A stretch of DNA of 64,000 bases from Nilaparvata lugens (taxonomy: Eukaryota > Arthropoda > Insecta > Hemiptera > Delphacidae), in contig NC_052510.1 of NCBI RefSeq assembly GCF_014356525.2, forward strand, positions 18,953,999 to 19,017,998, written 5' to 3'. The translations under genes were made by a program, and so were the position numbers. Below, piece by piece: positions 8,601 to 61,858 of this stretch (position 1 is its first letter; the number at the start of each line of letters is the position of its first letter). The notes under the pieces were generated by a model. It was not told the origin of the DNA. It did not search any database and worked only from the letters and a program-made list of their open reading frames with translations.

Positions 8601-11600
8601 CTACACTAATTGAGCAATTAGTATACGGTAACTGAGCATCACAGCACTGAGTGAATATTTCCTATGACATCAATATAATATATTTATTTTAAGGAGAATT
8701 TATTTGAAACCTATCTCACATGGCTCTCAAGACTGTGTGAGTTCACTTTTTCTTCTTTGATTTCCTTTTTAATTCTATCCCGTTTAGACGCGCCAGCTTT
8801 CCTTTTCTTTCTGCTTCCAACGACTGACATTTGGTGCTCTGGGAATTTGTCATAGTTGGAAAGCAAGCCGGCACCGTAATACTGATATTGACGATTCTGA
8901 AACAAAAATTAAAATATTACGATTGCATTTCATCGAGTCCGAATACAATTTGAATAAATAAACAAATACTTACACAGGGTTAAATACTGACTTGTGCGAT
9001 CTCTAGACTGTTCAAAACTGGTGACATAATGTACTGAGTTACATGCGATTTGTACAAGAACAAAGGTTAGAGGCCCTTTATGAACAGGTTCCACATTATG
9101 TATATTGAAACTAATTATTTTAATTTGACAAATGTTATAATTGGGCAAATACACGTGGCACCATCTAACACCAGTTTTAGAACTGTTTGACCAAGCTGAC
9201 AGCCATCTTCAAAGGTCAGGTACCACGATTTTCTAACTAAATAGTCAGCAGCACTTTGCGTTAAATGGCAATGAAATAAAAATATTCTTTATTAGACGGA
9301 GATAGGTCTTCTTAGTACTCTCTTATATTCAATCTTGATGAAATGGACAGCTTCATCAATGCATGAAATAAATGAATGAATCAATCGGTACAATTCATGA
9401 AAACACAGTATTGAAGTATGTTCCACCATTAAATAAAACTTGAAGTTGTAGTTCTTCAAAATTCACCAAACAGCTTGAAACAATCCATGTTTGAATATTA
9501 TTTTTTGTTCAAAGCAAATTATAGCTTGAAAATTAGAAAAAATAACTAAAGCTTGCAAATTATAGTAAGGTTTAATCTTACATCAGTCACGAATATTGAA
9601 GTGACATGCATTAAAATTCATTTTTTTTTTAATTTCAACTTTTTGACAGTTTCAAAAAATTTAAAAATCTTTCGGTAATATTCATCATCATTTGAGCAAA
9701 TTGCTGATTTCATCTTTGACCTACATCAGTATCAGGGTATGTTGTATTTCAGTATTTACTCTTGTGAAAGTTCATTTTATGAAATAATTTGTTACATCGT
9801 AGCTAGCTGATTCTGACACAAACACTGTATTGTTCTTAATAGTTATTAGTAAATTTAATACTGATTTCTGACCCAAGCACTGCATTTTTCTTAATAGTTA
9901 TTAGTATTTTCATTCAGTCTGTTGCCAGATCTAACGAATAACTCTTCGCTACTTTTATTGCAAATAATTTATTTATGTTTTTAATGGTAGAGCAAATTGT
10001 TGATAGCAACTTACCTCAGGATTGGTGTAGAATTTGCTCTGGTATTTCTTGTTGTACAAGTGCATTTTGAGCATGGTTTGCAAGTCTTCTTCGGTGATGG
10101 GAGTGTCGTCATCCTTGTCGTCTGACGAGTCGGATGAATCATCAACAAGGAGATCTTGTAGCCACGCCCGGTCCTCATTTACTTGCGCGAAATTGTACAG
10201 TCTCATGCGGTCGGACCGAAGATCTGAAATGATATCAATTATACAAACATTAAAATTTAGTAATAAATGTATATCAAGTTGAGTTACTTATAAATTATAG
10301 AAAATATTAATAAAAAGAATCAACAAATAAAATAAATACTGATAGTTGGGAGACATTATTCAAAGATGAGATAAAGTCAAGTCAATGTACAGGTTTTACT
10401 GTACCGTACGTTATAAGATGAAAACATTTAACTCACGTGGGCTACTTTTTAACAAATTAATAAAAACAATATACAAATCTTGAAGTACCCTTAATTTTTC
10501 AAAAACTTTAAAATAGTTCAACAACTAGTTTCGACCCTAACTTAGGTCATTTTCAAGTTGAAGTCATTTATTTTTAAATAAGTTTTTTTCAACTTGAAAA
10601 TGACCTAAGCTAGGGTTGAAGATAGTTGTTGAACTATTTTAAAGTTTTTAAAAAATAAAGGGTACTTCAAGATTTGTATATTGTTTTTATCAATTTGTCA
10701 TAAGATACTATATTTACTTGTCTGCATATCGGATGACACACAAAGTTCACTTAATACATCTTCTACATCACTACTATAGTCGAAAAACTTCTTTTAATTC
10801 TCAATTATGCCTTGAAAATATTTTGGAAAGCCGTTGGTTCGGTGTCTTTATCTCTTCTATTATATTTCTCAAATAAGCTATGCGTCTGCTACTAGATAAT
10901 ATGCTTTTGCTACTAGTTTATGCTTCTACTACTAGGTAATATGCGTTTGCTACTAGGTAATGTCAGTGTTGGACAGGTATCCAGTTGAGGAGCCGACTCT
11001 ACTAAATTTCATTTGTGGAAAAATGTATTCCCGGTGGTTCGGAGCCTCCATAAAGCTCTGGTCCACTTATCTCTTATCATCCTTCAAACACTGTTCCACT
11101 GTTCACCGAGCAGTTCTTGAATGATATGTACAGGGAAACGATATAGATATATGTAAAAAAAAGATTTTGGTTGGTAAAATTATCAGCTGGAAGTATGAAT
11201 AAGGTATTCAAATATGGCTTTTTCGATCAATATTCAATTTCAGCTATTATTTTAGAATAGAATAGAATAGGTTTTATTGTAACCGCTTCTGAGGTTTTCA
11301 GAAGCATTACCTCCGTCACAATGTACAGCAAATGTCACACATACAATACTATAATTGAAAAGATTAGTTCTGAAAGAACTACAATATCATGAAATATTAA
11401 TATCCAATTATGGGAATGTCAAAATAAATAACAAAGAGGAAGATTAAAAAAATATATATTCAACTATGAGATATTCTGACCTTGAGATACAATGCAGTCT
11501 CTTTTTCAAGATATAGAACAAGTGTGAATCAACCTCAAGTATTTTCAACTCATAACTTTGCAAAAAATTTTTTTTACATATCAATCAGTTGTTTTGCTGA

Positions 11601-14600
11601 GCAGACTGTAGCCAGTAGTTTGTGAGTGGTTAACACTCTCCCAAGCCCCCTGTGGATGTTGAGTGGAACATCGTACTCAAGAATGTGCTAAAAACCAGAA
11701 TTCACCCAAAGTATCCCTGCTTGTCGTAGAAGGCGACTAAAAGGGTACCCAAGGCAACTCCAGAAGTTGCCTTGCCTTCAAACCCATGGGATCTGCCCCA
11801 TCAGGGCAGTTTCGGAGGGGCAAAAAGAGAAGACCCAAGAGACCAAAGATGGGTGAAACTCCAGGCACAAATGTGGGTCAAGAGGCTGAGTCAAGAGTGG
11901 CAGGCGCCCTTGAAGCAATTTGGCCGTCCCTTCCTCAGCGGAAGGACCTTCAAAGAAGGCCAGGAGTGGAACTCACGTAGGTCACGAGGACTAATCAGTC
12001 TGAAGAGACAGCCAAGTATATCACACTGGATTGCGACAAGCAACCAGGTGATGAATGGGATGTTAGCATAGGGAAAACTCCTGGTTCTTTTAAAGGACAC
12101 AGGTATTGGTTTGCCTAGCTAACATACTACTTGGAAACACATTGGGCCATATGAATAAAATTGAGCATTTGCTTATACTTCTAAAATATGGAGCATTTGC
12201 TTCATTTTCTATGAATAAACGTGAGCAAAACCTTTTGCTCATGCTCATCAAAAAATAGTTTGAGCATTTGCTCAAAAGTAGAAGCTTCAGCTCAAAATTG
12301 TATGAATAAACTAGAACATTTGCTCAACTTTTGAAGCAAATGCTTCAAAAAAGGTAAGTCTAGTCTAGAGCAGCTTATCACCTTTTGCTCATAGTGAAAT
12401 GGCTCAACTAATTCGTATGAGGAAGAGGAAACTATACCAGATACGATCACAACTAATAGTTGAGAACTATAAAACTCCTTTTAGATTCAACCATGATATA
12501 TATCACCATTATCCCTACAAAAGAATAAATACAAAAGATAGCTACCTGATATAAAGATAGCCATCACAAAATAGGAAATAGGCATTTAAGAAGATGAGAG
12601 TGTAGACGATTATAAGAAGGCTATTGATATTATAAGAATATGCTGAAGATTATTATAGAGATGACATTTTTTCGAAGCATGGCCTAAAGCAAGGAGATGG
12701 AATTGCACCAATGCTCTTCAACTTGGCACTAGAGCATGCAATAAGGAGGACTTCAGTGGATAGGTGTGGAACACTGATGATGAAGTCAGTCCAAATACTA
12801 GGCTATGCAGATGATATTGGCATACTTGGTAGATCTATGATGGCTATGAAGAATGTAGCAATGGAGTTGGAGGAGGGTGCATCGGATGTTGGGCTGGAGA
12901 TAAACACTGGAAAAACAAAAGTATTGCTCCAGAGTAGACAGCATCGGAATAGACTCGGACAACGTATGGAATGTGGAGGGAAGCACTATGAAGTAGTTGA
13001 CAATTTCACTTACCTAGGGAGTTGCATAACGGATACTAATGAGGAACTCAAAGAAGTTCAAAAACGTATCACTGCAGCCAACCGCACATTTTTCTCCCTT
13101 GTATGCATATTCAAAGCTAGGAATGTACACCGTGAATGCAAGATAAAACTATATAAAAGCATTATAAGGACAGTGGTGTGTTACGGAAGTGAGACATGGA
13201 CAATGACAGCCAGAACAGCAGACCTGTTGAATGTATTTGAGAGAAAGATGCTGCGAAGAATATATGGACCGGTGTGTGAGGCAGGACAGCGGCGTATCCG
13301 TACTAATGCAGAGTTAGCAACACTCTACAGAGAACCCCCACTATCGGCCCACATAAGATTGATGCGGCTCCGATGGGCAGGACATTTGCAACGGATGCCA
13401 GATATACGTGTGCCAAGGAAAGTATTCGTGGGACAGCCTGGAGGAAGGAGACCTGTTGGAAGACCAAGAGAGCGATGGGAGGATAGAGTGGCAAAGGACG
13501 CTAGGGAAATGCTACGTTTGAGGAGATGGAAAGGTGCAGCAATGAATAGAGATGGCTGGAGGCAAAGTTTAATTGAGGCCAAAGCCCGATTTGGGCTGTA
13601 GCGCCATTGGAGAGAGAGAGAGTGACATTTTTTCACGTTATTATTTCAAAATTCTAAACTCAAATAACCTGAAACTCTATTCATAAATAGAAAAGAGAGA
13701 AGACGACGCAAACACAAGCGGTGCCCCCTACTTGCATATTTAGCGCTTCCGTGAGCTATAAAAAGAAAGTAAGGCTACAAAAGCGAATCAGCTGATGAAA
13801 AATCTTTGAAATACGTGAGCATTTGCTCCAGAGTTCAGGAGCATAAGGTAAGAGTATAAGGTAAAGCTTATTCATATAAAAATGAGCAAATGCTTTTGAT
13901 TCTACCTTTTGCTCATGAGCAGAACCTTATGCTCCATGCTCTTGCTCATGAGCATTTGCTCTGATTTTATTCATATGGGCAAATAAGCTTCGGTTGACGT
14001 GTGGGGTTCTTTGAACCTTTGGATCCTTGAATCCGTCCCTTCAAAAATAATAATAACACATAAAAATCCTAATTTTAATAAACAATTTAATTTTAAAAAC
14101 TATCAAATTTTATTTTAAAATACAAACACTTCACCAAACAATTTATAAAAATAGTTTTCTTACCATGTTTGGAAGAGACGATTCCATTCAAAGCACCTTT
14201 ACTATCGAGAAACTTCAGCACTTCGCTGTCAGAATCACTACTAAGGTCGTCGTTGCTGAAAGCAAAATAACACTTTGGTAATTAATTAGAACACCAATTT
14301 CAAAGTGAGTTGATACAAAATCAACAGAAATGATTGAATAGATTATTAATGTAGGCTATAGAATTCCAAAATCATCCTACAGATCAGTATCTAGAGTATC
14401 ATCCCACAATGAAGTAAGACAGGGATAACTGTATAACAATTCATCATCTAGCAGTAGTTAAAGTTTCTTCAAAGTTTGGACATTTTTAATTTAATATTTT
14501 GTAATTGATCTAATATAATTGAAAAGTATTTTTTAATTTAATAATGTTTTTTATTGGATTGTAAAATTTAGAGTGTCATTCAAAAATGTGAAAGTGACAC

Positions 14601-20254: not shown

Positions 20255-21695
20255 CTGGTGTGGTACACTCACACAACTTTCCTTGCTCATTGAACTATAA
20301 GCCTCATTATCAAACGAGAATAATTTAGGGGAATAACATATGGTAATGACGATTGATGGCAACATATTTGCAGCTACGATATGTGTATATAAAATTGTTT
20401 TCAGAGTACTTTTTCCTTTATGTAAATTGTGAAATTCAATGATTTTTTTTTGAAATTCGTCAAAACAGCTGTTCTACAGATGAAATATCTTGACTATGAC
20501 TGTGTTCTTTTCATAAACTGCTCTACCTACCCACGGTATATGGAAGAAGAAAAAGTAAAAACCGTGTACCAACCTACCTCATGCACGAGAAGGAGGTTAC
20601 AAAGTCCATTTCTCAAGGATTGGGTGGACCCCTCATTAGTACCCCAGGAAAAAGACTTATGTCAGTTGATAGAGCTAATAAATAACTACACAGGGTATGT
20701 ATATAAAATTGTTTTCAGAGTACTTTTTCCTTTATGTAAATTGTGAAATTCAATGATTTTTTTTTGAAATTCGTCAAAACAGCTGTTCTACAGATGAAAT
20801 ATCTTGACTATGACTGTGTTCTTTTCATAAACTGCTCTACCTACCCACGGTATATGGAAGAAGAAAAAGTAAAAACCGTGTACCAACCTACCTCATGCAC
20901 GAGAAGGAGGTTACAAAGTCCATTTCTCAAGGATTGGGTGGACCCCTCATTAGTACCCCAGGAAAAAGACTTATGTCAGTTGATAGAGCTAATAAATAAC
21001 TACACAGGGTATGGATTTCAAAAAATTCGTTAGAGCCGTTTTTGAGAAAATCGTGAAAAAATGGTTTTTTAGTCATTTTTCTCAAGAATATTACGGAGCT
21101 CCTGCAATTTTCTCAGAAATGAGACTAATGTCAGTTGATAGGGCTTATAAATAGCTATCCATGGTATAAATTTGAAGAAAATCGTTGGAGCCGTTTTCGA
21201 GAAAACCGTGAAAAACATGGCTTTTTAGTCAGTATCCGCCATTTTTCTCAAGAATATTACGGAGCTCCTGAAATTTTCCCAGAAATGAGACTCATGCCAG
21301 TTGATAGGGCTTATGAATAGCTATCCATGGTATAAATTTGAAGAAAATCGTTGGAGCCGTTTTCGAGAAAAACATGGCTTTTTAGTCATTATCCGCCATT
21401 TTTCTCAAGAATATTACGGAGCTCCTGAAATTTTCCCTGAAATGAGACTTATGCCAGTTTATAGGGCTTATAAATAGCTATCCATGGTATGAATTTGAAG
21501 AAAATCGTTAGAGCCATTTTCGAGAAAAACGTGAAAAACATGGTTTTTCAGTAATTATCCGCCATTTTTTCCGCCATCTTGAATTGAATTTTATTGAATT
21601 TCCTATTGTCGGGTCCTCAGGGTATAAGGACCTTAAGTTTAAAATTTCAAGTCAATCGGTTAATCAGGAATGGAGTTATCGTGTTCACAGACATA

Positions 21696-27600: not shown

Positions 27601-30600
27601 AAGGAAGTATTGCTCCTTGAAAGTAGATTTTCTCGTGTCACTTAACTAATCCTTACAAGCTGTTGTAACAAACGATAGTATGCAATTTTTCTAGTTGAAA
27701 CTTCTAGGCAAGTTTCCCTAAATCCTTTAATGATTTGTGTTGTCAGTTTAAAATATTGTTAATATTTAAGAACTATATTTTACTTAGGATTTCTTTCTGG
27801 TACAATTTAATCACGCAACTTCACCTCCAAATTATCTCAGTTGAACACATCTAAACCAAATCTACTCTCAAAATTTCACGAAGCACCAATGTCTTGTTTG
27901 AAGCGCACGACTAAATTTAAATACTTACGAAAATACAGGGTGGGGCAGAGTGGACTCCCTGATATGATCGGTTAACTGTATAAAAACCATACAAGATTAT
28001 TACAAAAGCTTTTTATTCCTGAAATATAAATACAATTCAATTTATTTTTCATTAAGTTTTAAAAATGATATCGTCCAGGTGACGACCTTGACGAGCGATG
28101 CACATATTCAGGCGTTCCATGAAGTTTTCAAAAACTCTACGCAGCATATCTGGCGTTATTCCAGTGATAACATCAACAATTGCTTCCTTAAGGGCTTCCA
28201 AGGTCCTTGGTCGAACTTTGTAAACCTCAGATTTGAGGTAACCCCAAAGAAAATAATCGCATGGGCTTAGATCGGGGGAGCGAGGGGGCCATGAAACATC
28301 CCCTCGTAATGAGATCAAGCGGCCAGGAAACCGTTGTTGCAGAAGTTGGCGAGAGCGACGGGCGGTATGAGCCGTGGCACCATCCTGTTGAAACCAAAAG
28401 GCTTCCAAATTATTTTCCTCACCATACTCCTCAATTCTGGGGAAGAAAAAGTTCTCCAACATCTGACAATAGCGCACAGCGTTCACAGTAACGGTTGCAC
28501 CTTCCGATTCAAAAAAGTAGGGGCCAATTATGCCTATGGTGTCCTCACACTCTTTGGTTGTCCGACTGGTTTTCTAGGCAGTGCAGATCCTGTCGCCCGT
28601 ACACTTGTAATCCATTTCTTTATGGTTTTAGCATCGGGAACACTATCATGACGATTCAAACCAAACCGTCTACGAAATGCACGCTGGGTCGCCACCACAC
28701 TATCCTTATTTTTAAAGAACGTTTCGACTACAAAACCACGATGCTCGCCAGTCCACGGCATGGTGTCTACTAATAATGGCGTCTTTTCCCCCACCACATG
28801 GAACCTCTCCCACTCCGCTAACTCACGCGCGTACTCTTCAGTGACTGATTGAAACTAGGGAGTCCACTCTGCCCCACCTTGTATTATTAGAATATTTTGT
28901 TTTCAGTTTTAATAATTTTTGTGCGTGCTTTCAAGTATTAATGACAATTTTTATTATTGTCGATTGATTAAAGATTGTTGTAACAAAGTGTTGCAGTATT
29001 GTCAGAATTGTTGTCTGGTTGTGGGCGGGCATCTGGTCTGATGAGATGACGATAGATGCTGGTGACGTGGCGTTGCGTTGCGATGAGTAGGCCTATTAGC
29101 GGGGTATTGTGCGAAAGGTGGAGCGAATGTGTTCTGAGGTGATAGCAGCACAATAATCATTCCATTATATATTATTGTTATATTGCCGCTTCCCTCGTGT
29201 TCCTATTATTATTCGACATTATTCTGGTAGAAACTATTGAGATTTAAATTAGTTTTCTACATAAAAAATCATTAATTGTACTAGAACATATCTGAAGGCT
29301 CATAAACAACTGATTTACAAACTCATCCATTCTATGAAAATTCCAGTTTCTTCTTACATTTTTCAAGTTTTAGGCCTACTTGATTTTTCTTTTATATTGA
29401 ATGATGCTAAATCACTGTATTCCATAGTTTTTTGTTTTTTATTTAATTTTGATGTCTCAATATTTTCATTTCATTCACTTTTCTCTATCAATTTTACATT
29501 CCACATATCTTACATTATTAAAAGTAGTTGATACTATTTTCACTTTCTGATGACCCCATCCAAATTTAATATTCATACAGTATTGCTCTGGGCTTCACCA
29601 AAAATTTATTGATTCATTAATAATAATAAAACCACAATAATAGAATCATTGGATTGAAAAAAATCATCATTAATTATTTCCGGTATCAGCACATTCCTGA
29701 TTATAAATGAGCTTATTCCACTCGTTCAAGATAACATTCATCCAGACAGTTGATTTTGGTTGGTGCAACCAGCATTCTTATGTTCCAATGATGATATTAA
29801 TTTATCATCAATTTTTCCACTTTTTTATTACACTTGATGTTTATTGTTTACTGACGATCGAAACACTCTTAAAATACAATATCATTATTTCGTTGATTCA
29901 TTAAGTCAATTGAATGAAAGCCAGCAATTGCTAGTTCCAAGTAATTTTCAAGCAAATGCTATGATTCAAGTCAGCAGTATAATTGTAATTGTATAGCTAG
30001 AATCAATGACTAGTTGCTAGTCAATAGGTTCTAGTTTTTATTCAATCGACCCATTATGTAATACCTTAGATAGTGATTAAATTAATTTTCGCATTGGAAG
30101 GAACTAATGATGATTATTGAAAGGAATCTATTCTAAAACTGAACCTCTGTAAAAGAAATATAGAAAGGAAATAATGACTATTATTAAAAGGAATATTTTT
30201 CACTACTTGAGCTGTGGTGTTTTGGAATGAAGTGTGTGTTTTTAGTATTATTGTGCTGCGCGTGGAGTGTTGACTGGCTGCTGTGGACTAGAGGCGTTTG
30301 TTGTTGGTGTTCTAGGGTAATAGTGGAGCATGCGCGCGGCACGGCGCGACGCGGGGGCGGGGGAGAGCGCTACGGATCAAGTCGACGACCGCGATCCGCG
30401 TGGTACGACAAGTAAGTAGATGATCATTGTCGCTCACTCTGTGTCGCTGTTGTGTTGCAGAGTCTGTGTAGAGAGAGCGCGGGGCACGCCTAGGGGCAGC
30501 GATGTGTGGAGGGGCCTGGGGCGCAGTCGAATTTCGGGCCCACCCTCACGCCGCGGTCCCCCCAGTCCCCGGCGCGGATCAAGAGGGGACAGGTACCTAG

Positions 30601-36600: not shown

Positions 36601-39600
36601 AACGGTAATAGCATGTTGCAAATTCAAGATACTGTTAATTGTAAAATTCAGTCGAATTATGCATCTTCTTGAAAGGAGTTTGATTTGGTAAAATATATAA
36701 ACTGATTTTTTTGAATGAATTTTTCATTAAGCTCTGTAAGTAATATGAGTTGATGGCACTGGGTTTTTTGTTTTAGACACTGGAGCTTTGCGCAGGTATC
36801 TTGTATGATATGTGGTTTTTTTATATTATCAGGATCATTCTTTAGGATAATATAATATATCAGTCCAGGCAATGATTGCTACAGTCAAATAAGAGGATGT
36901 AGAGGGAAAAGTTTGGAAGACAATAATTTTTGACCCAGCAGCTCTCTTTAAGGGTAGTATGGAGGATATCAAAAGTCAGCACCCCTACCCCTGTGTTTTG
37001 ATATGTTTGTACCACAGTGGATAGGGGCGGGGACTTTTGATAATTTTCACCTCTTTACAACCCTAAACAGAACTGCGGGGTTAAAAATTGTCTTACAAAC
37101 TTTTCCCTCTATAACTCATCGTTGACTGGACTATATTGTAGCTGTACTAAGTACCATTAGCTATATAGACTCTTGCTGCTGTTGGTTTTTATTATCAGTG
37201 ACTGAATTCCATTGAATTTCAATGATAGGCACACTTTAATATGGCATTTATAATCAGTTCTGTTGAATTCCTACAGATGGTTTATGTTATCGATTTTCAA
37301 TGAATATTACCCAAGTGGTTAATACCCATGTCTATTAAGGAGTCTATTTGGATTTGTGTTTTGTCTCTCAGTATGAGAAATTTTCTTGTAAAATGTTTTT
37401 TTTTACTTTTGAACCTATAAATCTGAATTCGATCAACACGTGCAAAATTTGAGAATGACATTGAAATTTTTATATATTTATTTTTCAATACAATCAGTTG
37501 GAAGTCAATAACTTTTTACATCTTGCATATTATTATAATCTCTTTTGAGTTTACTAATCTACTGGTTCTTTCTTAGATGTACACTTACAGTTTTTTCTGT
37601 CTTGAAAAATCTTGCAATATTTTGCAATGCATTTATTTGTGCTCTCTTTATTCTGGTGATGTTGTTTTCATTAATTATTGAATTCCTTATGTGTATTCGA
37701 ATGAATAAGATTTTGAGCAACAATGATACATTGGTGTTCTTTATCCTCTAATTGCGTATTCCTCTTGATTATGTTTTAATTGGAATTCAAAATCTTTTCT
37801 AACGGTTTATTGTGTCTTGCTCATAGGATTTGAAAGATTTCATGCGGCAAGCTGGTGAAGTGACCTATGCTGATGCACACAAGGATAGAAGGAACGAAGG
37901 GTGAGCTTTCCTTCGATATTTTTTCATTGTCAATTTGCATGTGATATTAGCATTTTTTAGGTTATACTTGTAACATATAATTGCCATCGGCAACAAGATA
38001 GTTACAATTTTTGCTTCAATCTTGATTTTCACTCCTCTTTCTTTCTCTTGAGAATTTTTTTTCTCAAATTTCAAAATATTCTACCCAACATTTTGTATTG
38101 TTCTTGTTGAATAATTATGAAAAGCGCAGATAGGGACAACTGATTGTATTTTGATGTCAAAATCTGAGAAAATGATCTGATATGCGTCAGCTTCTGTATT
38201 TTTCAAGTGTATGAACTGGAATGGTAGATTATGTTGGCTGAGTAAATTTGACAAATATTACTTGAAATCTATTTAAGTCCACTATTGGTTGATTGCCAGT
38301 CATTGAACCAAAATATGCAGTGCTATGAAGTCTTATCTGTCGATACAGTAGTTGAAATTATGCTTATCATCTTCGGATATAAGATAATAATTTGATGACA
38401 ACCTTTTCAACTGATTAACTAAACTACATAAGGTTTTGGATTCAATATATTATATGAATATCTGGCTCCTAGTAGATAAAATCATATTAGATTATTTGTA
38501 CTATTCACTTCAATTTTATCAAAGCACAATGATGAAATCAACAGATAGGGACAACTGATTGAATTTGATGTCAAAATCTGAGATTTTTATTTCCTGATGT
38601 GCTCATTTACAATAGGGTTCAGGATAGTTCAAATTGCATTTTAATATAATAAATAATGAAATTGCTCAATGTGCCAGTAATAAATGCTTATGAAGTTGAA
38701 ATGATGCTTACATCTTTCGAGTCAGTTCATTTTGAAGAAACCCTATTTAACTGGTTAATTTCATAAATTATATTTTCTCAACTCTTTCTAAATAAATTTA
38801 AGTTGATGGCTGTTGAGTCTATGAACATTTATTTGTAAAAGAACGCAGGTCCATAGGTTTTAGTTTTGATGCACGTATGATGAAATAATCAGATAGGGAC
38901 AACTGACTAACGTTGATGTCAAAATCTGAGATTTTAAAGTTCTGATGTGCTATAAGAAATGACAGTCATATTCTAATCGAACCACTATATTTTATTATCA
39001 TTACATGCCTATGTCTATGAAGCTAAAATGATATTTACATCTTTCGGGTCTGAGGAGTTTATTTGATGACAACCGTTCTACTGATTAACTTCATTGATTG
39101 TTCTGAAATTTAGTTAGGAACTCGGAAAGTACAAGCTCGTTCTCGAACCACTATATTACTCACACCGATTCCCTTCAAAATGCAATTAACGCACATATGA
39201 TGAAACCTTCAGATAGGGACAACTGATAACAAGTTGATGTCAAAATCTGAGAACTTAATTTTCTGATGTGCTATTTGTTCAATTTTATTTTTTAATAATT
39301 ATTGAAGTTGTAGCAGGCTAAATAGCATTATCTATGATAACAATGTTGTAATAAATTTATTTGAGAAGCTTAAATGATGCTTACATCTTTCGGGTCTGAG
39401 TTAATTTGATGACACCCTTTCAACTGATAAGCTTCTTTTGCTGAATTCTATGTAATTGGGGAACAATATTGACTTAATGAATTATGAAAATTTGATAATA
39501 ACTGCTATGAAGTTGAAATGATGCTTACATCTTTCGGGTCTGAGAACATCTGATGCCAATCTTTTGACTGATTAACTTCAAACGCTTTGTCTCTTAGAAT

Positions 39601-42600
39601 TCCATTCAGTAATTAATTGGACTTTGATAACTCTTCTCTATTTTTTTCCTTCAATATTGAAAATATAATGTATTCTTTAGAACAAACTATTTTTTATTTA
39701 TTCGATTAGAATAAAAAAATATTCAGTCTAATAAGCAAGCTACTTTGAATGTTTCATTATACAAAAGTCGATCAGAGTTTTTCAATGTAATTAAGATAAC
39801 TTACCACTTATTATCATTTATGCGATTCTTTTTATGAAGTTTGAATGATGCTTACATCTTTGAGTCTGTGACAACTTCTCAACTTTCTTCATAATATTGA
39901 TAATATTCTCTCATAATATTAATATTCTCCCATTCCGGGAGAAGTAAAAGAATTGATTTTAATAGGTGAGCTGTCTCTATCTCAAATCTTTCGGTGGTAA
40001 CAATTTCCCATTCGATGATAGCAATGTATTCATGCAATTGATTAATTATTCTCAATATATTCCTAGAACACAGTCATGTTCTGAAACTCACTGAAAGCAC
40101 GCATGATGAAACCAACAGATAGGGACAACTGACCACTGTTGATGTTAAACTCTGTGAGATCTCGAATTTCTGATGTGCTTTGAATAGTCGCAAGTGTCTT
40201 AGTTCATTGTAACCATTTACTCTTGTTTCACTTGATATTCTATCTGTTTATCTAAAAATTACTGATCTTCAAATGCGTTTGTGTTGTAATATTATCACGT
40301 GTTCACATGTTGCATATTATGCCTGTTGTTTCTACCTGCATTGTATCTATTGTCTATAAATAAATAAATGAATGAATTATGTTATAACTATAATTTCATA
40401 ATTCAATTTATACAGTTTCATATACTGTATGTCAATTGTTTATTCATATGAAAGTCTCATTATCCCACTTCACTCTCAACTGAATCCATGTGGAACATAT
40501 TATCCCTTTTACATTATTTGTTACTTGAATACAATTAGCCAATTTCCAACAAAACTATCTTGCACAACCATTGATAGATTTAATTTGGATTATTCATATC
40601 GATGAACGTGAAGAGAAATACCTATAGTTTTTATGTCATCAAACATCTTTTCTTGATTTTTTCACAATAATATAATTTATGTGGGAGGGTCGAAACATAC
40701 AGGAGCGGAGAAGGAAGTAATGTATGTATTGTTTACTTGTTGGTATTTTAAAGGATATAACATTCATAGATTTTGTTCAAATATTTCAGAACATAGTGGA
40801 GCGGCGAAGATAGGGTTAACAGTAGAAGGAAGATTAGATTAGGATCTATATTTCACTGAATATTTCAAGTGACCTTGGAGAATTTATATTATCGATTGAA
40901 GAATCTAATTTAATTAAATAAGTTATAAATCATAATTAAGTTATTCATTCAAGTATGTTACAATCTGACGTATAAACTAATTTACAATAATGACAGTATA
41001 GCTATTTATTCAACGATTTTACCTAGTATCGAAAATTATTCTCAGCTGTGAATAACAAATAGTGAGTAGGTTTTTGATTTTGTATTAATTTTTTTTAAAT
41101 AAGTGCAATATTTCTAAAGTTTTTAATTTATTGTGGTACATTCTGTGATTCATTTAAAGTATAAAATCAACCTTCAAAATTCGAAATTTTAAATCATCAT
41201 TCCTGGACCGAAAATCAAGTAACGAAGCAGTGTGTGATTACATAACCTTATCTTTTGGACAACATTAACATTTTATCAAAATTTTTGGAGAGAATAGTAC
41301 AGGCTCAGCCTAGTTTTTCCTCCAATGTCATAATTATATTATGATTATAGTATTTTATACAATAAATGAATGAATAATCACATTGAAAATTTAATGTAAT
41401 TTGAATATCGATTATCTAATATTGTGATGTAACTATATAATCGGTGGTGTTTCAACAAATAATTGACGACTCTGAGAAGGATATAAAATGATATGCTTGC
41501 AATGAACACACGACCGGACGCGGAGGTGGAAATATTTAGATGCATTATGCATTATTTTCAAAACTCAGCTACCTTCTCTGCTACACTCTGCCTTCGACGC
41601 TCCACTATTTTTTGGCCATTTCTGTATGATTGTAATTATTGAATTATCTTTGTTTTATCTTCTCCGATTTTTCCTTGGATTGGTCATCTTTCCCTTCTAT
41701 CATTTGTGTAATACTGTAGGATGTTAAATTAAGATGATTGCTCTATTAGGTTCAAATATTAATTGAGCAAATGACGCGCTACCTAATGATGAAAAATGTT
41801 CGACTTGATGTTTGATGGACATTGACTTGTGTTTCAGTGTGGTGGAATTCGCCACCTACTCTGATCTGAAGAATGCCCTGGACAAGCTGGACGACACGGA
41901 TCTGAACGGACGCCGCATCCGCCTGTTGGAGGACAAACGGCGGTCGCGTCGCTCTCGCTCTTCCAGCTCAAGGTCACGCTCTCGCTCGCGCTCCCGGTCG
42001 CGTCGCCGCTCAAGGTCAAAGTCAAGGTGATTATTGCTCAAACATTTGAATGCAGTCAATGCATGCTGAGATGCTCCCAGCAGCTACTAACTGTGTTGTT
42101 CTTTATCTGTGAACTTATCTTGGAAGAAATAGTTCTCATGTTAGTCTTACCGATTTGTTATCGTTGATGAGTATTAAATAAAAAGAGGTGTATTCGTCAC
42201 AACCACTCAGTATTGTGCCTGGCTTTCACGATTCAAGTAAGATGTTCTAGTTACTGGAAGCATGCTACTTAGACCGTGTAGACTCGTACTTGTACCTGTA
42301 AACTGTTCGAATACGTGTCCACACGGTTCAAATTACACCTGTTATTAATTTACTAGTAACTAGAACGTTTTTACTATTAATTAATTAGTAACTAAAAATT
42401 AGAATGGACTATTAATTAGTAACTAGAACGTTACTGGAATCGTAAAAACTAGTCATCAGCTTTGGGTTGTTTACCAGCAGCTCAAAGTTATCGTCCGGTT
42501 TCAACATTTAAACCAAAACCTAATCACTGTAAAATGTAAATTAATGAGGAATATTGTGTTGTGGTTCTATATTTCGAAATCAGAATTCATCGAATAGCTA

Positions 42601-55200: not shown

Positions 55201-58143
55201 TTGTTTAAAATGAATGAATTGCCTTTCGTGACAGCTATTCTTTGTAAACTACCTTTGAACAGTTGCTCTAGTGAGCCAGGGTGTCAATTTGTAGATTGTA
55301 GATTCCAACCAGTTTGACACACGCACAACTGCCAACGCCCTTCTTGCAGAAAGGTGTTGCTGAAGCCTACGTGAACAATAGTATTTCAAAACATTGTTAT
55401 TCGAGGAGCTATTCACAAGTAATTGTCAATAAGGGCTTGTCTATTATAAACTGTAGGATGTTGAACAAACTAATATACAGTCGAACCTCTCTATAACAAA
55501 CCTCCAGCTAACGAAATCCTCTACACGACGAATTTTTACCTGGTCCCATGACATTTTAGAGTTTTTGCTGCTTATTTACCTCTATTTAACGAATTTCGGA
55601 CCTCTCAACAACAAAGTTTCTTCTTGACTTCAACATACAAAGTGTAGTGTGTATAGGAAGCAGACGGTCATTTTCAAGGAATTCTTTAGTTTCAGCAGAA
55701 AGGTCAATAGACTAAAAATAATGGCAATTCAGGTAGGAAGAAGATAGGGTGGTACGATATTATAGATCCATAGGATCGTGGCAGTTTTCTTGACAGAACC
55801 TCTCAATAACGAATACCTCTCAGCAGCGAATTTTTTCTCGGGATAATCGACTTCGTTATACAGAGGTTCGACTGTATTTTCATTTTCATAGTATTGCTTT
55901 TCGTAACATAAAGGACTGATGATTTCGAAGTATTTTCTATTCTGGTTGTGAATATAGATGTTATTATGGAATGTTGAATATTATTGTTTAACATTGGGCT
56001 CATATATTCTATTGGTATTCATGATAAATTAAGCTTGGTAAATATATTTTGTTCATTTATAGTGGTTTTGTATAGAATAATTATTGAACTAGCGTGAGTT
56101 TTAACTTTTGACTTACTGAAGGACAAAGTCGTTGTCCGTCTGTTTGTATGTTCTACAATAACTTTAAAAAGAATTGATCAATCTTCTCAAATTATGAACA
56201 CGTATTCTCCGAACCCTTTTACAGGTCAAGTTTGTTGGACAACAAATTGGACAACTCACTCTTTTGTCCTTTTTCAGGATATAAAAATAACATTGAAAGT
56301 GCATTAGAAAAAAATTGTTATGATCTATCATTTGGTCAGCTGAAGAATTCTTTGCATGCAATTACTACAGTTTTTCCATTCATTTATTCGTATCATCATC
56401 TGAGGTTATTTGGGAGCAAAGTTAGTAGACTGTCTACTAACGTTGATTTGGGAGCAATCACACACACTGACATAATATGATTTTAGCTGGTTCATTATAC
56501 TTTACAACTTTTGTATCAACAAAATGATATGGGTTGATATAATTATCAATTTGCGGTTTTGGCTATTTATTTTCTCTTGGAACTATGTATCGAAATCATG
56601 TATCAAACATTTAAAAAAATCTTTGAGTGTCAAAGATGTTGAAGCGACAGAGTAATATTTTTAGAGTAATTTTTCATTTCAAATAACATTCCCAATGGAA
56701 ACTGCTGTCAAATTATTATTGTAAGAGAAATATTTAGCAGCTTTAGTAATTTTCATAAACTCTGTATAATCAAAAGTTGAGGGTTTCAAAGATTACAATG
56801 CAAAACAGTTCTTGAACGAGTTCTCTGAACCACGGGGGTCACAAGTTCATACAGATAGAAAAAAGATAAATTCTTTTAACCGTATATTATCATAATATGC
56901 TAGAATAGTATCAGTAGTTATTAGTAATTTTTCATATAGTGATAGCTAATAGTGGTTATAGTAATTGCAATAATAATAATAGACTATTTATTATTTGAAA
57001 TAGCCTATTACTAAATAAGTTTCATAGAATGTGTAAATTATTTATTATGCAGATTTTTATATAATTTGCATTCATCAATTCCATTGAATTAAATTGAATC
57101 GTCATTCTGGGATATATTATGTCACACACTGTCAACAAATTTATTACTTTATATTTCTTTTCTATAAAATATATTATTGAAAGGAAATAAATTATGAAGG
57201 TTTCTGTTTTCTTCGTGATCTATTCATTATTTGAGTTTATGAATTTTGTACTCAGAAATAAATATGGCTGTCTAGCAAGTAGTCAAAAATAGAAAAAAGC
57301 ATGAAATATTTTTTCTGTATACCCAGTTTCCAGTAAGTTACAATTAATCCAGAAGATATAAAGAATAATTTTATTTGACTTTAATTTTATTAATGGACCA
57401 ATCATATGAATAGATGGTATGGTGATTTAATAATAAATTATTTGATTTGAAGTTTCACTTTGAATTGAAAAAAAAGTATAACAATAATTGATGGAGCCTC
57501 AATTTAATCATGATAAAAATTAATCTGGAAGGATCTCATTATCAGATTATTTAACAATGTGTAATAGAATTGACTCATTTATTTATTTATTTATGCATTC
57601 ATAGAAATAAAATAATTCCAAACTTATTAGGAATTATATTGGAAAAGGAACAACAGCTTTTATGTTGATATCAGCAGCATGAGATAATACTGAGAGGGAA
57701 ATTATGGAGTACTGTAGTATCACACAGAAAATATATTTTCCTTTCTCCTCTCTGAGAAGTTACTGTACTAGTGTGTGATTCACTGTATGGTGTGTGCATG
57801 TGTGCGTGTATGCGCTTCATAAAATTGAAAAGATAGCAGAGCAGAGCAAGCCGATCATCTACTAGTAATATTGGATAATTGCCAATCGTGACTTGTTTTT
57901 ATTTTGTTGAATGTGGATGTGGAATGATAATAGCGGAGCAAGGGGAGTAGGTGACAGAGTACTACAACTGTTGGAGGGGGATTTCTGAATTAGCGGGGAA
58001 GGCCTGTCGATGGTACTGATCTCTCGTAGCGAGTTGAAGAACTAACTGTTAGTCACCCATTTTACCCCCCTCCACACCCACTCCACACTGCTGGTCACCC
58101 ATTAAGCGAAACATTAGATGAGTTCTCTGATCTCTTCTCTGTG
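52205..58143. mobile_element. 5.9-kb TIR element inside gag, 7-bp TSD CTAGAAC, no transposase seen
   Basis: The left end CACAGAGAAGGATCAGAG and the right end, inverted CACAGAGAAGAGATCAGAG, form an imperfect TIR of about 22 bp. CTAGAAC is duplicated exactly (52198-52204 and 58144-58150). Deleting the element and one duplication copy restores gag in frame across the site. The interior is AT-rich, has only short open frames and contains a separate pogo-like MITE. Seven-base duplications are known for 1360/ProtoP-like P-superfamily elements and for Dada. I cannot assign it further. Confidence 0.85.
55476..55876. repeat. Pogo/Tigger-like MITE, TA duplication
   Basis: Ends CAGTCGAACCTCTCTATAAC and inverted GTTATACAGAGGTTCGACTG are flanked by TA. 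Sub-terminal AACGAA and CCTCTC motifs repeat inside. The length is about 397 bp and it is non-coding. It lies inside the 5.9-kb element, so it inserted after that element formed or was carried by it. Confidence 0.85.
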
Positions 58144-61100
58144 CTAGAACCCAAAATGAACATGAATCCTTCGATGATTTCTATACTTCCTTGCGTAAAC
58201 TTAGTGCATCATGTGGGTTTTGGGATTATGCTGGACAGTCTTTTGAAAGATAGAATAATTGGTGGAATAAAAAATAAAAACCTCCAAGATCGACTTCTAC
58301 GTGAAGAAGAACTCACATTGGAAAAGTGCGTGAAAATGTGCAGAACAGCTGAACTTGCTAATGAACAGTTGAAAACTCTCAATGAAAGTGTAGCTGCAGT
58401 GAACATTGTACATCGTGAGAAGAATAAAAACTACAACCAGAATCGTTCCGAAAATGTACCTAACTACAAATCAACCCAGAAGTTCCAGCAGCATGAGTCA
58501 AACAAAAGAAATGATCAACCTAGAGATGGCTTCAAGATGGGAAACCAAAGTCAACGCAGAACTATCCGAGATTGCAGTAGATGTGGCCAGGATCACCCAG
58601 AGCGAAATTGTCCTGCATTCAACAGGCAGTGCGCGGTATGCAAGAAAAGAGGACATTATGCGGTAAAATGTAGAAATAAGAAGAATAATATCAGTACGGT
58701 GAGTACAAATTCTGAAAACAATTTATTTTGTGGAACATTAACTTACTGTAAAGGTAAAGACTGGTATGCAACAATTACTTTGAATGAAAATAAAAAGGTC
58801 AATTTCAAGTTAGACACTGGAGCTCAGTGTAATTGTCTTCCAATATCTGAGTATAAAAAATTGAATTTGGGTACTTCAATTTGCAAGTCGAATAATACTC
58901 TATTCAACTATGATAATTCAAAAATAAAAGTTCTTGGTGAGTGTAAAGTATCTTGTAAAGCTGAAAATAATGTAAAGAAATCATTCATTTTCCAAATAGT
59001 AGACATAAGAGCACCTCCTATCCTAGGTAGAGAAGCTTGTGAAGAACTGAATTTAATCAAAAGAATGGATACAGTTTCTACAAATAGTAAGCCTAATAAC
59101 GTAATTGAACAAAATAAAGATATCTTTGAAGGTCTTGGTAAAATTAAAGATTTTGAATGTACATTGAATTTGAAAGAAAATGCTAATCCTAAAGTAGAAG
59201 CTACCAGAAAAGTTCCTATTTATTTAGAGGAAAAATTCAAACAGGAAATTGACAAAATGGTAAATGATGAAATCATTAGGGAAGTAGTTGAACCTACTGA
59301 GTGGGTGAATAGTATTGTCTTGGTGAAAAAACCCAATAATGAAATTCGCATTTGTCTCGATCCTCAGAATTTAAATAAAAATCTATTAAGAGAACGTTTT
59401 TACTTGCCAACATTTGAAGAATTAGCTAGAAAACTAAGTGGATCTGTCATGTTTAGTACATTGGACGCTAATCAGGCTTTCTATCAACTAAAACTTAGTG
59501 ATGACAGTAGTAAATATACTACTTTTAATACAAAATATGGTCGATTTTGTTTCTTGCGAATGCCATATGGTGTGTCCGTGGCATCAGAAATATTTCATAG
59601 ATGTTTTTCTAAAATCTTTGGTGATATCCCCGGTGTTTCAATTTTCATTGATGACCTAATTATTTACGGTAAGTCTGAAAAAGAGCACGATGAAATATTG
59701 CAAGTTGTATTACAAAGAGCTAGAGAATTTAATGTAACATTCAATGCAAACAAATGTAAATTTAAATTACAACAAGTCAATTACATGGGTCATATTATAT
59801 CAAAAGATGGTGTAAAAATAGATGATAAGAAAATCAAAGCTATTGTTGAAATGAAAAAACCTACTAATGTGAAAACTTTAGAAACATTCTTAGGTATGAT
59901 TACATACATTTCTAAATTTATCCCGAATTTGTCAAACAAAACTTCAATTTTGAGAAAATTACTAAAGAAAGATGTTATTTGGCATTGGACTTCTGAGCAT
60001 GACAAGGCATATGATGAGTTGATAAGCATATTAACTTGTAAACCAGTTCTTCAATTTTTTGATCCCAACAAGGAAATAGTATTGTCTGTAGATGCATGCA
60101 AGGATGGATTAGGTTGTGTATTACTTCAAAATAATTTACCGGTTGAATATGCATCCAAGTCATTGAACAGCACTCAACAAAATTATGCAATCATAGAAAA
60201 AGAAACATTAGCTATTCTGTTTGCATGTGAACGTTTCCATCAGTATATTTTTGGTAAACATGTAACTATAGAGAGTGATCATAAACCTCTTGAGAGTATT
60301 TTCAAAAAACCACTTAGTGAGTGTCCTGCTAGATTGCAGAGAATTCGTTTGAGACTATTGCAGTATGATTTTACTATTGTGTACAAACCTGGTAAGGATT
60401 TACTTATAGCAGATTGTTTGTCTAGAACACATTTCAATGCTTATGAAGATGATTCTCTTAGTGACGAAATTGAGTATCAAATATGTGTATTAACTGAGAA
60501 TAATGAATTTGTCCAAAACTATTATGATAAGTTAGTGATTGAAACAGCTAAAGATGAAACTTTGTGTAAAGTAAAGGATATGGTAAATAAGGGATGGCCT
60601 GACAGTATCAAACAGGTACCTTCTGATTGTCAATCTTACTTCAGATATAGAGAAGATTTGTATATAGCTAACGATTTACTATTCAAAAATGATGGTATTG
60701 TTGTTCCAACAAATATGAGAAAGGAAATGTTGAATATTTTGCATTATAATCATATGGGCATAGAAAAATGTAAGTTAAGAGCTAGGAATAGTATATTTTG
60801 GCCTGGAATGTCTAATGACATCAGTAATATGATTTCTACTTGTGAATCTTGCGCAAAATTTAATAATTGTAACAGAAAAGAGTCATTTGTAAGTAGAGAA
60901 ATTCCTGATAGTCCATGGCAAGAGGTAGGAATGGATCTTTTCAAACTTCAAGGAAAAAATTATGTTTTAATTGTTGATTATTTTTCCAAATATGTAGAGA
61001 TAGGATTATTACAAGACTTATCAACTGAATCTGTAATTACAATCATGAAATCTGCTTTTGCTAGACATGGCATACCAAAAATTGTATGGAGTGACAATGG

Positions 61101-61515
61101 TCCACAATTGAAGTTGAATAATACTATATTTAATAAATTTGTCGATGAATGGAAATTTGTACATAAAACGTCAAGTCCTGAATATCCTCAATCAAATGGT
61201 ATGATTGAAAGACAAGTAGGAATTGTAAAGAAAATGTTGAAAAAAGCTATCTATGATGGTAAAGATCCCTACTTAGCATTACTAGAATATAGATGCACAC
61301 CGTTATCAGCCAGTTTGCAATCCCCCTCAGAGTTATTGATGGGTAGAAAAATCGATCATTTGATGCCTAATTTGAATCAATTTGTAAATAGAGATAAGTT
61401 CAAACATGTTAGAGATAAGTTGAAAGAAAGTCAGGAACGTCAAAAATATTATTATGATAGAGGAGCGAGGAATAAAAAAACCATTGAACATTGGAGACCA
61501 AGTTTTTGTGAATAA
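58141..61515 (+). CDS. Gag-Pol polyprotein of Gypsy element (rest of gag, PR, RT, RNase H, IN)
   Basis: A 1124-codon open frame whose first codons lie in the neighbouring insertion; true gag text resumes just after 58150. Visible parts: capsid tail (LLKDRIIGGIKNKNLQDRLL, residues about 35-60), two zinc knuckles near residues 145-180 (CSRCGQDHPERNC, CAVCKKRGHYAVKC), protease LDTGAQ near 222, and RT with FIDDLIIYG near 502. RNase H follows around 645-760, then integrase with an HHCC finger (867-903) and catalytic D, D, E (near 930 MDLF, 983 WSDNGPQ, 1020 MIERQ). Two one-base gains in homopolymers break the full frame: one near 58217 (TTTT) and one near 61485 (a run of seven A), after which the frame ends early. 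Confidence 0.95.
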   Translation: MLEPKMNMNPSMISILPCVNLVHHVGFGIMLDSLLKDRIIGGIKNKNLQDRLLREEELTLEKCVKMCRTAELANEQLKTLNESVAAVNIVHREKNKNYNQNRSENVPNYKSTQKFQQHESNKRNDQPRDGFKMGNQSQRRTIRDCSRCGQDHPERNCPAFNRQCAVCKKRGHYAVKCRNKKNNISTVSTNSENNLFCGTLTYCKGKDWYATITLNENKKVNFKLDTGAQCNCLPISEYKKLNLGTSICKSNNTLFNYDNSKIKVLGECKVSCKAENNVKKSFIFQIVDIRAPPILGREACEELNLIKRMDTVSTNSKPNNVIEQNKDIFEGLGKIKDFECTLNLKENANPKVEATRKVPIYLEEKFKQEIDKMVNDEIIREVVEPTEWVNSIVLVKKPNNEIRICLDPQNLNKNLLRERFYLPTFEELARKLSGSVMFSTLDANQAFYQLKLSDDSSKYTTFNTKYGRFCFLRMPYGVSVASEIFHRCFSKIFGDIPGVSIFIDDLIIYGKSEKEHDEILQVVLQRAREFNVTFNANKCKFKLQQVNYMGHIISKDGVKIDDKKIKAIVEMKKPTNVKTLETFLGMITYISKFIPNLSNKTSILRKLLKKDVIWHWTSEHDKAYDELISILTCKPVLQFFDPNKEIVLSVDACKDGLGCVLLQNNLPVEYASKSLNSTQQNYAIIEKETLAILFACERFHQYIFGKHVTIESDHKPLESIFKKPLSECPARLQRIRLRLLQYDFTIVYKPGKDLLIADCLSRTHFNAYEDDSLSDEIEYQICVLTENNEFVQNYYDKLVIETAKDETLCKVKDMVNKGWPDSIKQVPSDCQSYFRYREDLYIANDLLFKNDGIVVPTNMRKEMLNILHYNHMGIEKCKLRARNSIFWPGMSNDISNMISTCESCAKFNNCNRKESFVSREIPDSPWQEVGMDLFKLQGKNYVLIVDYFSKYVEIGLLQDLSTESVITIMKSAFARHGIPKIVWSDNGPQLKLNNTIFNKFVDEWKFVHKTSSPEYPQSNGMIERQVGIVKKMLKKAIYDGKDPYLALLEYRCTPLSASLQSPSELLMGRKIDHLMPNLNQFVNRDKFKHVRDKLKESQERQKYYYDRGARNKKTIEHWRPSFCE

Positions 61516-61858
61516 AAATTCTTCTAAGGAAAGGGAAAAAGGATTGGTATTAGGATTAGCTGATAGACCAAGATCATATCAAGTTCAGTTAGAGTCAGGA
61601 CAAAGGGTTGAAAGAAACAGAAAACATTTGAATTCTTTCAAATCAAATACTCCATTTTATTTGCATGCCAATGATGATATCTATAATTCAGAAAATAATA
61701 ATGAAAATTCAGATATGAATACAAACGAAAATGAAATCATCCCATTTGCTTATGATGTTGCTGATGATAGAATTGATGAAACTGATAATAGTAAGGTGAG
61801 TGAACGTCCAAAAAGAAATATTAAAGCTCCTAAATATTTGAAAGATTATGTTTTGTAA
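61485..61858 (+). CDS. Pol C-terminal tail (after a frameshift)
   Basis: The frame continuing from the integrase reads KKPLNIGDQVFVNKN, then VERNRKHLNSF, and ends RPKRNIKAPKYLKDYVL with a stop at 61858. This is the usual tail of such Pol proteins, without a chromodomain. It is separated from the main frame only by the extra A near 61485. Confidence 0.88.

Follow-up and report, generated by a model that had tools for sequence, protein, structure and literature searches.

A 64,000-nucleotide (nt) stretch of the Nilaparvata lugens genome (assembly GCF_014356525.2, contig NC_052510.1, positions 18,953,999 to 19,017,998), referred to here as the window and numbered from its first letter, carries eleven box C/D small nucleolar RNA (snoRNA) units within a single intron of a gene for a serine/arginine-rich (SR) splicing protein. 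All of the units lie on the plus strand and fall into two families, A and B, in the order A-B-A-B-A-B-A-B-B-B-A. Judged from its sequence, the array is very probably an intronic box C/D snoRNA gene cluster of two deeply conserved guide families, in which about eight units look usable and three look dead. The guided sites are predicted to be a 2'-O-methylated C (Cm) for family A and a 2'-O-methylated G (Gm) for family B, both in 28S ribosomal RNA (rRNA). The units, with their scores against covariance models of family A (R1) and family B (R2), are as follows.

38108-38189, plus strand: A1, R1 62.4 bits (E 2.6e-14), held out of the model; guide, D', C' and D kept, C box ATTATGA, GCAC/GTGC stem lost; weakened
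38347-38426, plus strand: B1, R2 44.6 bits, held out of the model; C box ATTATGC, altered guide, no D', C' and D intact; probable pseudogene
38523-38606, plus strand: A2, R1 104.3 bits, part of the model; complete C/D snoRNA
38689-38766, plus strand: B2, R2 61.7 bits, held out of the model; C box and stem intact, a single change in the guide, no D', altered C' and D; probable pseudogene
38871-38954, plus strand: A3, R1 106 bits, part of the model; complete C/D snoRNA
39016-39096, plus strand: B3, R2 96.5 bits, part of the model; guide, D', C', D and stem intact, but C box ATGATAT differs from RUGAUGA at two positions; weakened
39191-39275, plus strand: A4, part of the R1 model; complete C/D snoRNA and best family-A match in Rfam
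39362-39439, plus strand: B4, part of the R2 model; complete C/D snoRNA, C box ATGATGC, and best family-B match in Rfam
39506-39583, plus strand: B5, part of the R2 model; complete C/D snoRNA, C box ATGATGC
39833-39894, plus strand: B6, R2 35.0 bits (E 9.1e-6), held out of the model; C box and outer stem intact, shortened guide, altered D', neither C' nor D left; probable pseudogene
40096-40182, plus strand: A5, R1 99.6 bits, part of the model; complete C/D snoRNA

Units A2-A5 went into R1 and units B3-B5 into R2, with the terminal stem as the only structure given. The held-out units A1, B1, B2 and B6 were all recovered, as such they are independent finds, and the next-best matches in the window scored 19.1 bits for R1 (antisense to A2) and 17.4 bits for R2. 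When R2 was run on the intron with filters off, the best match beyond the known B units reached 10.3 bits. Since the models recovered the held-out units and all other matches were far weaker, the count of eleven and the alternating order, both proposed in an initial annotation of this DNA, are right. A suspected twelfth unit (a seventh B) near 39970 gave no R2 match even with filters off. Exact matches to the family-A guide-box word AGATAGGGACANCTGA (16 letters) occur six times in the 1.085-Gb genome, five times within these 2 kb and once in the dispersed copy described below, and the same pattern read backwards has none, therefore the array is not a product of chance. This count covers exact matches, which diverged copies would escape. 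The corresponding guide word of family B is CATCTTTCGGGNCTGA. Neither an A-unit pattern nor a 28S word had a match when viral contigs were scanned.

Six of the eleven units keep every part (A2-A5, B4 and B5), two are weakened (A1 and B3) and three are broken (B1, B2 and B6). The C box RUGAUGA and the D box CUGA are present in full in A2-A5, and in B4 and B5 with C as the final base of the C box; the C box is weakened in A1, B1 and B3, and the D box is altered in B2 and lost in B6. The internal D' and C' boxes are kept in eight of the eleven units, with B1, B2 and B6 failing on D', and the guide is altered in the same three. In family A the guide and D' are identical in all five copies, and A2-A5 share the terminal stem GCAC/GTGC, which A1 has lost. 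The terminal stem of B3-B5 has nine pairs, with 26 of 27 cells paired and three of the nine pairs changed on both sides. Furthermore, TCAAAATCTGAGA, which lies between C' and D and is not a known box, is identical in four of the five A copies, A1-A4 (38157-38169, 38571-38583, 38919-38931 and 39240-39252); these stretches have no common match in the partial 28S contig described below. The claim that the conserved parts are exactly the boxes and stems is therefore too strict, given that B1, B2 and B6 have lost D' and carry altered guides, A1 has lost its stem and A1-A4 keep TCAAAATCTGAGA. Binding by fibrillarin, NOP56, NOP58 and 15.5K and accumulation as a stable RNA, both traits of box C/D snoRNAs, would be predicted for the units of the array.

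The division into two C/D-box families agrees with both the covariance search and a comparison of the intron region with Rfam using cmscan (cut-offs of 48 bits for RF00530, 37 for RF01299 and 30 for SNORD36). Family A matched snoMe28S-Cm2645 (RF00530) with 36.7 bits for A4, 31.5 for A3, 30.6 for A2, 28.1 for A5 and 24.4 for A1, and family B matched SNORD2 (RF01299) with 36.9 bits for B4, 31.2 for B5, 25.0 for B3, 22.2 for B2 and 21.3 for B1. The best matches, on the plus strand and with boxes in register, had E-values of 6.6e-5 (A4) and 1.2e-4 (B4) for the intron region and 6.5e-4 and 0.0012 for the whole window. Because these scores are below the cut-offs, we name the families only Cm2645-like (A) and SNORD2-like (B). 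Family A resembles snoMe28S-Cm2645, of which we take SNORD74/snR64 to be the counterparts, in its AGATAGGGACA guide, its C and D' boxes and its 28S Cm site, but differs in score (36.7 against 48 bits), in the part from C' to D and in having five copies in one intron. Family B resembles SNORD2, presumably with yeast snR39B as a family counterpart, in the C box, the 12-base-pair (bp) D' guide with CATCTTTCGGG beside CTGA, the terminal stem, the length and the 28S Gm site. It differs in that B4 falls just below the cut-off (36.9 against 37 bits) and in that its copies stand side by side in an SR gene, whereas human SNORD2 is found in EIF4A2 (PMC10324135).

The guides upstream of D' were compared with a partial large-subunit (LSU) rRNA contig, L001, which was the sole target searched. 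The family-A guide forms an 11-bp Watson-Crick pairing with eukaryotic 28S at TGTCCCTATCT, placing the fifth base from D' on C2706 of L001, and all five A units do so. The family-B guide forms a 12-bp Watson-Crick pairing at ACCCGAAAGATG, with the fifth base on G1142, in three of the six B units (B3-B5). Among 497 CTGA sites in the window on both strands, ten have antisense matches of 11 nt or more beside them, and eight of these ten are A1-A5 and B3-B5; the other two lie outside the array. Requiring instead a match of 9 nt or more together with a C box that has no more than one mismatch left eight sites. All of them are in the array: the guides of seven units, and the D guide of B3 if C' is taken as the C box. 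The copies have no common guide complementary to L001 upstream of D: A1 and A3 have 10-nt runs at different places, and the runs in the remaining tested units are 8 or 9 nt long. The reading of the units as rRNA guides is supported by the complementarity of the D' guides to 28S, but the eleven units should not be counted as eleven working genes, with three broken and two weakened. We note that L001 is filed under a gammaproteobacterial metagenome-assembled genome, yet is wholly a match to LSU_rRNA_eukarya, i.e., contamination.

Evidence from the planthopper's own 28S comes from fragments, no complete copy having been seen. A 28S word has five sites in its genome, two of them in 28S fragments with the A target intact (L005, 134 nt, and L006, 39 nt); at the remaining three (L002-L004) the sequence does not match LSU rRNA. 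Both target stretches are contained in arthropod 28S primers, as given in reports on Harmonia (PMC5807316) and Ornithodoros (PMC9725135). Under the proposed mechanism, C/D core proteins would bind the units during or after splicing of the host SR pre-mRNA, and the units would be trimmed to RNAs of ~75-85 nt. Both families would use the guide upstream of D', with family A directing 2'-O-methylation of the C in 28S ...ACUGUCmCCUAUCU..., equivalent to Drosophila Cm2645 by the name of its Rfam relative, and family B directing that of the G in ...ACCCGmAAAGAUG..., which is the target site of SNORD2.

The host intron and its flanking exons, with splice sites placed from the protein, and a weak candidate exon inside the intron are as follows.

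37827-37900, plus strand: upstream host exon, 74 nt, part of RRM2, ending ...HKDRRNE + GG
37901-41837, plus strand: host intron, GT...AG, 3937 nt
41838-42026, plus strand: downstream host exon, starting VVEFATYSD..., with the start of the RS domain; its end is placed at AAG|GTGA
39598-39965, plus strand: weak candidate cassette ('poison') exon, acceptor 6.3 bits, donor TAG|GTGAGC 10.9 bits

The host is of the B52/SRSF4-5-6 type, with RRM_1 in both pieces (RRM1 and RRM2) and RS repeats at 41968 and in further exons. Among solved structures (PDB), SRSF6 is the best match to its RRM2 (E 1.9e-42), which bears out the claim that one intron of an SR-protein gene is the host, and several of the best 120 of 364 protein homologs are named SRSF4, SRSF5 or SRSF6. 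By human exon numbering, we take the array intron to be the autoregulatory 'intron 5' of SRSF5 orthologs, a point that the initial annotation did not make. It lies between the DLKDF..NE and VVEF exons, where an SRSF5-type intron 5 with a cassette exon subject to nonsense-mediated decay (NMD) is expected. Published studies describe autoregulation of intron 5 in SRSF5 orthologs (PMC4379411) and B52 isoforms that go up under NMD block (PMC2689934). The candidate exon, the best exon-like pair of splice sites in the intron, would run into an in-frame stop once five codons had been read. It is located between B5 and A5, with a gap of 14 nt to B5, and contains the broken B6. Its donor, TAGGTGAGC at 39963-39971, between B6 and A5, scores 10.9 bits, against 7.7-11.3 for the real donors of the host, and an exon pair as good arose in 63 of 500 simulated introns. 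Among the matches listed in searches of open-access papers, there was no case of snoRNAs hosted by B52, an SR protein or SRSF4-6, and no like array among those on tandem or same-intron snoRNA clusters.

The copies probably arose from old local duplication, at least partly of A+B pairs. The steps from A to A are 415, 348, 320 and 905 nt, so that the spacing of about 320-415 bp first reported fits all but the last; those from A to B are 239, 166, 145 and 171 nt. The first three steps from B to the next A are 176, 182 and 175 nt, and 734 nt separate the starts of B4 and A5. It is plausible that an A+B pair was amplified, as had been proposed, and this fits the order and the spacing, but the order of runs and the spacer homology do not prove it: at least nine runs occur in 41 of the 462 orders of five A and six B (P = 0.089), the agreement between the distance tables of A and B (pairs 1-4) is no better than that of 10 of 24 permutations, and a single 15-nt word is common to spacers (those flanking B3, E 4e-5; all other matches E >= 0.011). 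The array looks like one that evolves by birth and death, with family A nearly whole and half of family B broken. A sixth A copy lies elsewhere in the same genome (contig C2, L007:1481-1564), 88% identical to 38518-38627 with flank beyond the snoRNA included, and is closest to A2 among the array copies. It starts 13 nt after a GTGAGT on the same strand, at the apparent end (by eye) of an LRR-type coding stretch, and no B unit was found beside it in the 3 kb examined. With this A2-like copy located in a different gene, it follows that units can also move out of the array.

Several observations weigh against the reading as a cluster of snoRNA genes. In the whole-window scan none of the units reached the Rfam gathering cut-off, and B6 was not among the cmscan matches; weaker matches to further C/D families overlap the units, of which SNORD36 on A2 comes closest to its cut-off (28.2 bits against 30). 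The covariation in the B stem comes from three sequences and is equalled in 41 of 500 shuffles. Mammalian C/D snoRNAs have an optimum of ~70-80 nt from the 3' splice site, from which A5 is far removed at 1655 nt; A1 begins 207 nt from the 5' splice site. The damage to three B units, and the weakening of A1 and B3, likewise count against it, and are what would be expected if the array were mostly a dead relic, i.e., a graveyard of duplicates with one or two working copies per family, possibly elsewhere, whose likeness reflects common origin or gene conversion and not selection on many copies. The changed C box of the dispersed A2-like copy, ATGATAA, also fits such a relic. However, six units keep every part, and the exact A word occurs only once in the genome outside the array (exact matches, family A only). 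Furthermore, with guide and D' identical in all five A copies and spacers that share one 15-nt word, conversion would have to stop at the ends of the units. We therefore consider a relic unlikely.

It is likewise improbable that the copies are kept by selection for high output of both guides. The initial annotation had claimed that the array is 'kept for dosage', for which we found no supporting evidence. The six complete copies in one intron and the identical A guides would suit this explanation, but half of the B copies are broken, which argues that they are redundant rather than kept for dosage, and single-copy intronic snoRNAs are enough for many sites in other animals. A role in cis, in which the units would govern how the host intron is spliced, seems very unlikely. 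Family B is SNORD2-like, the intron is presumably the one autoregulated in SRSF5 orthologs, B5 stands close to the candidate exon, and ...CTGATTAAC... within B5 resembles a branch site (by eye). The precedent is human SNORD2, which can act in cis on EIF4A2 by hiding a branch point (PMC10324135). However, pairing of the units with the 5' and 3' splice-site regions was not unusual (in 22 tests the best rank was 19 among 200 shuffles), and an equally good candidate exon occurs in 63 of 500 simulated introns. It is also very unlikely that the array is a coupling device in which release of the guides is tied to splicing of an SRSF5-type self-throttling intron (poison exon or retention), with B5, at the end of which there may be a branch site, competing against inclusion of a poison exon located between B5 and A5. 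If true, ribosome modification and the level of an SR protein would be tied in one intron, and branch-point masking of the SNORD2 type would recur in an unrelated host gene.

As a cluster of snoRNA genes, the array is made of ordinary parts, and it is the packing and the host gene that are unusual. Vertebrate intronic C/D snoRNAs usually occur one per intron and are trimmed from the ends of the debranched intron, and the SNORD115/116 and SNORD113/114 arrays also have one snoRNA per intron. If six to eight units in one intron are usable, an extra step (e.g., internal cuts) would be needed or linked snoRNA chains would result, and the copy sequences differ enough to tell these outcomes apart. 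As in the intronic snoRNA clusters of Drosophila and other eukaryotes, several snoRNAs share a host transcript. Multi-snoRNA hosts listed for Drosophila include Uhg1-Uhg8, lola, Arpc2 and dom (PMC13228274), clusters in one intron are a recognised arrangement (review PMC11028025), and many fly clusters are spread over different introns of one host (PMC5932544). The present array differs from the fly clusters in alternating eleven units of two families inside one intron of a protein-coding gene. It resembles SNORD115/116 and SNORD113/114 as a tandem C/D array with gain and loss of copies, but those are described in the same review as orphan snoRNAs at imprinted loci, whereas the present units carry rRNA guides and share one intron. 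As such, the array would document how two rRNA guides, next to each other, undergo birth and death within a gene that regulates its own splicing in other animals.

Elsewhere in the window, a separate C/D snoRNA candidate lies in another gene, on the minus strand, ~120 nt before what is likely a 3' splice site:

14377-14454, minus strand: single C/D snoRNA unit, 42.6 bits against Rfam snoR38 (cut-off 45), with guide ACAGTTATCCCTGT

Tandem open reading frames of 105 and 96 amino acids at 20429-21033 have the same first ~90 residues, i.e., a local duplication. At 10530-10620 microRNA families match both strands below their cut-offs, perhaps reflecting an inverted repeat of a mobile element. Long gag-pol-like retroelement frames and a transposase-like fragment were recognised by eye at 58141-61858 and 28052-28486.

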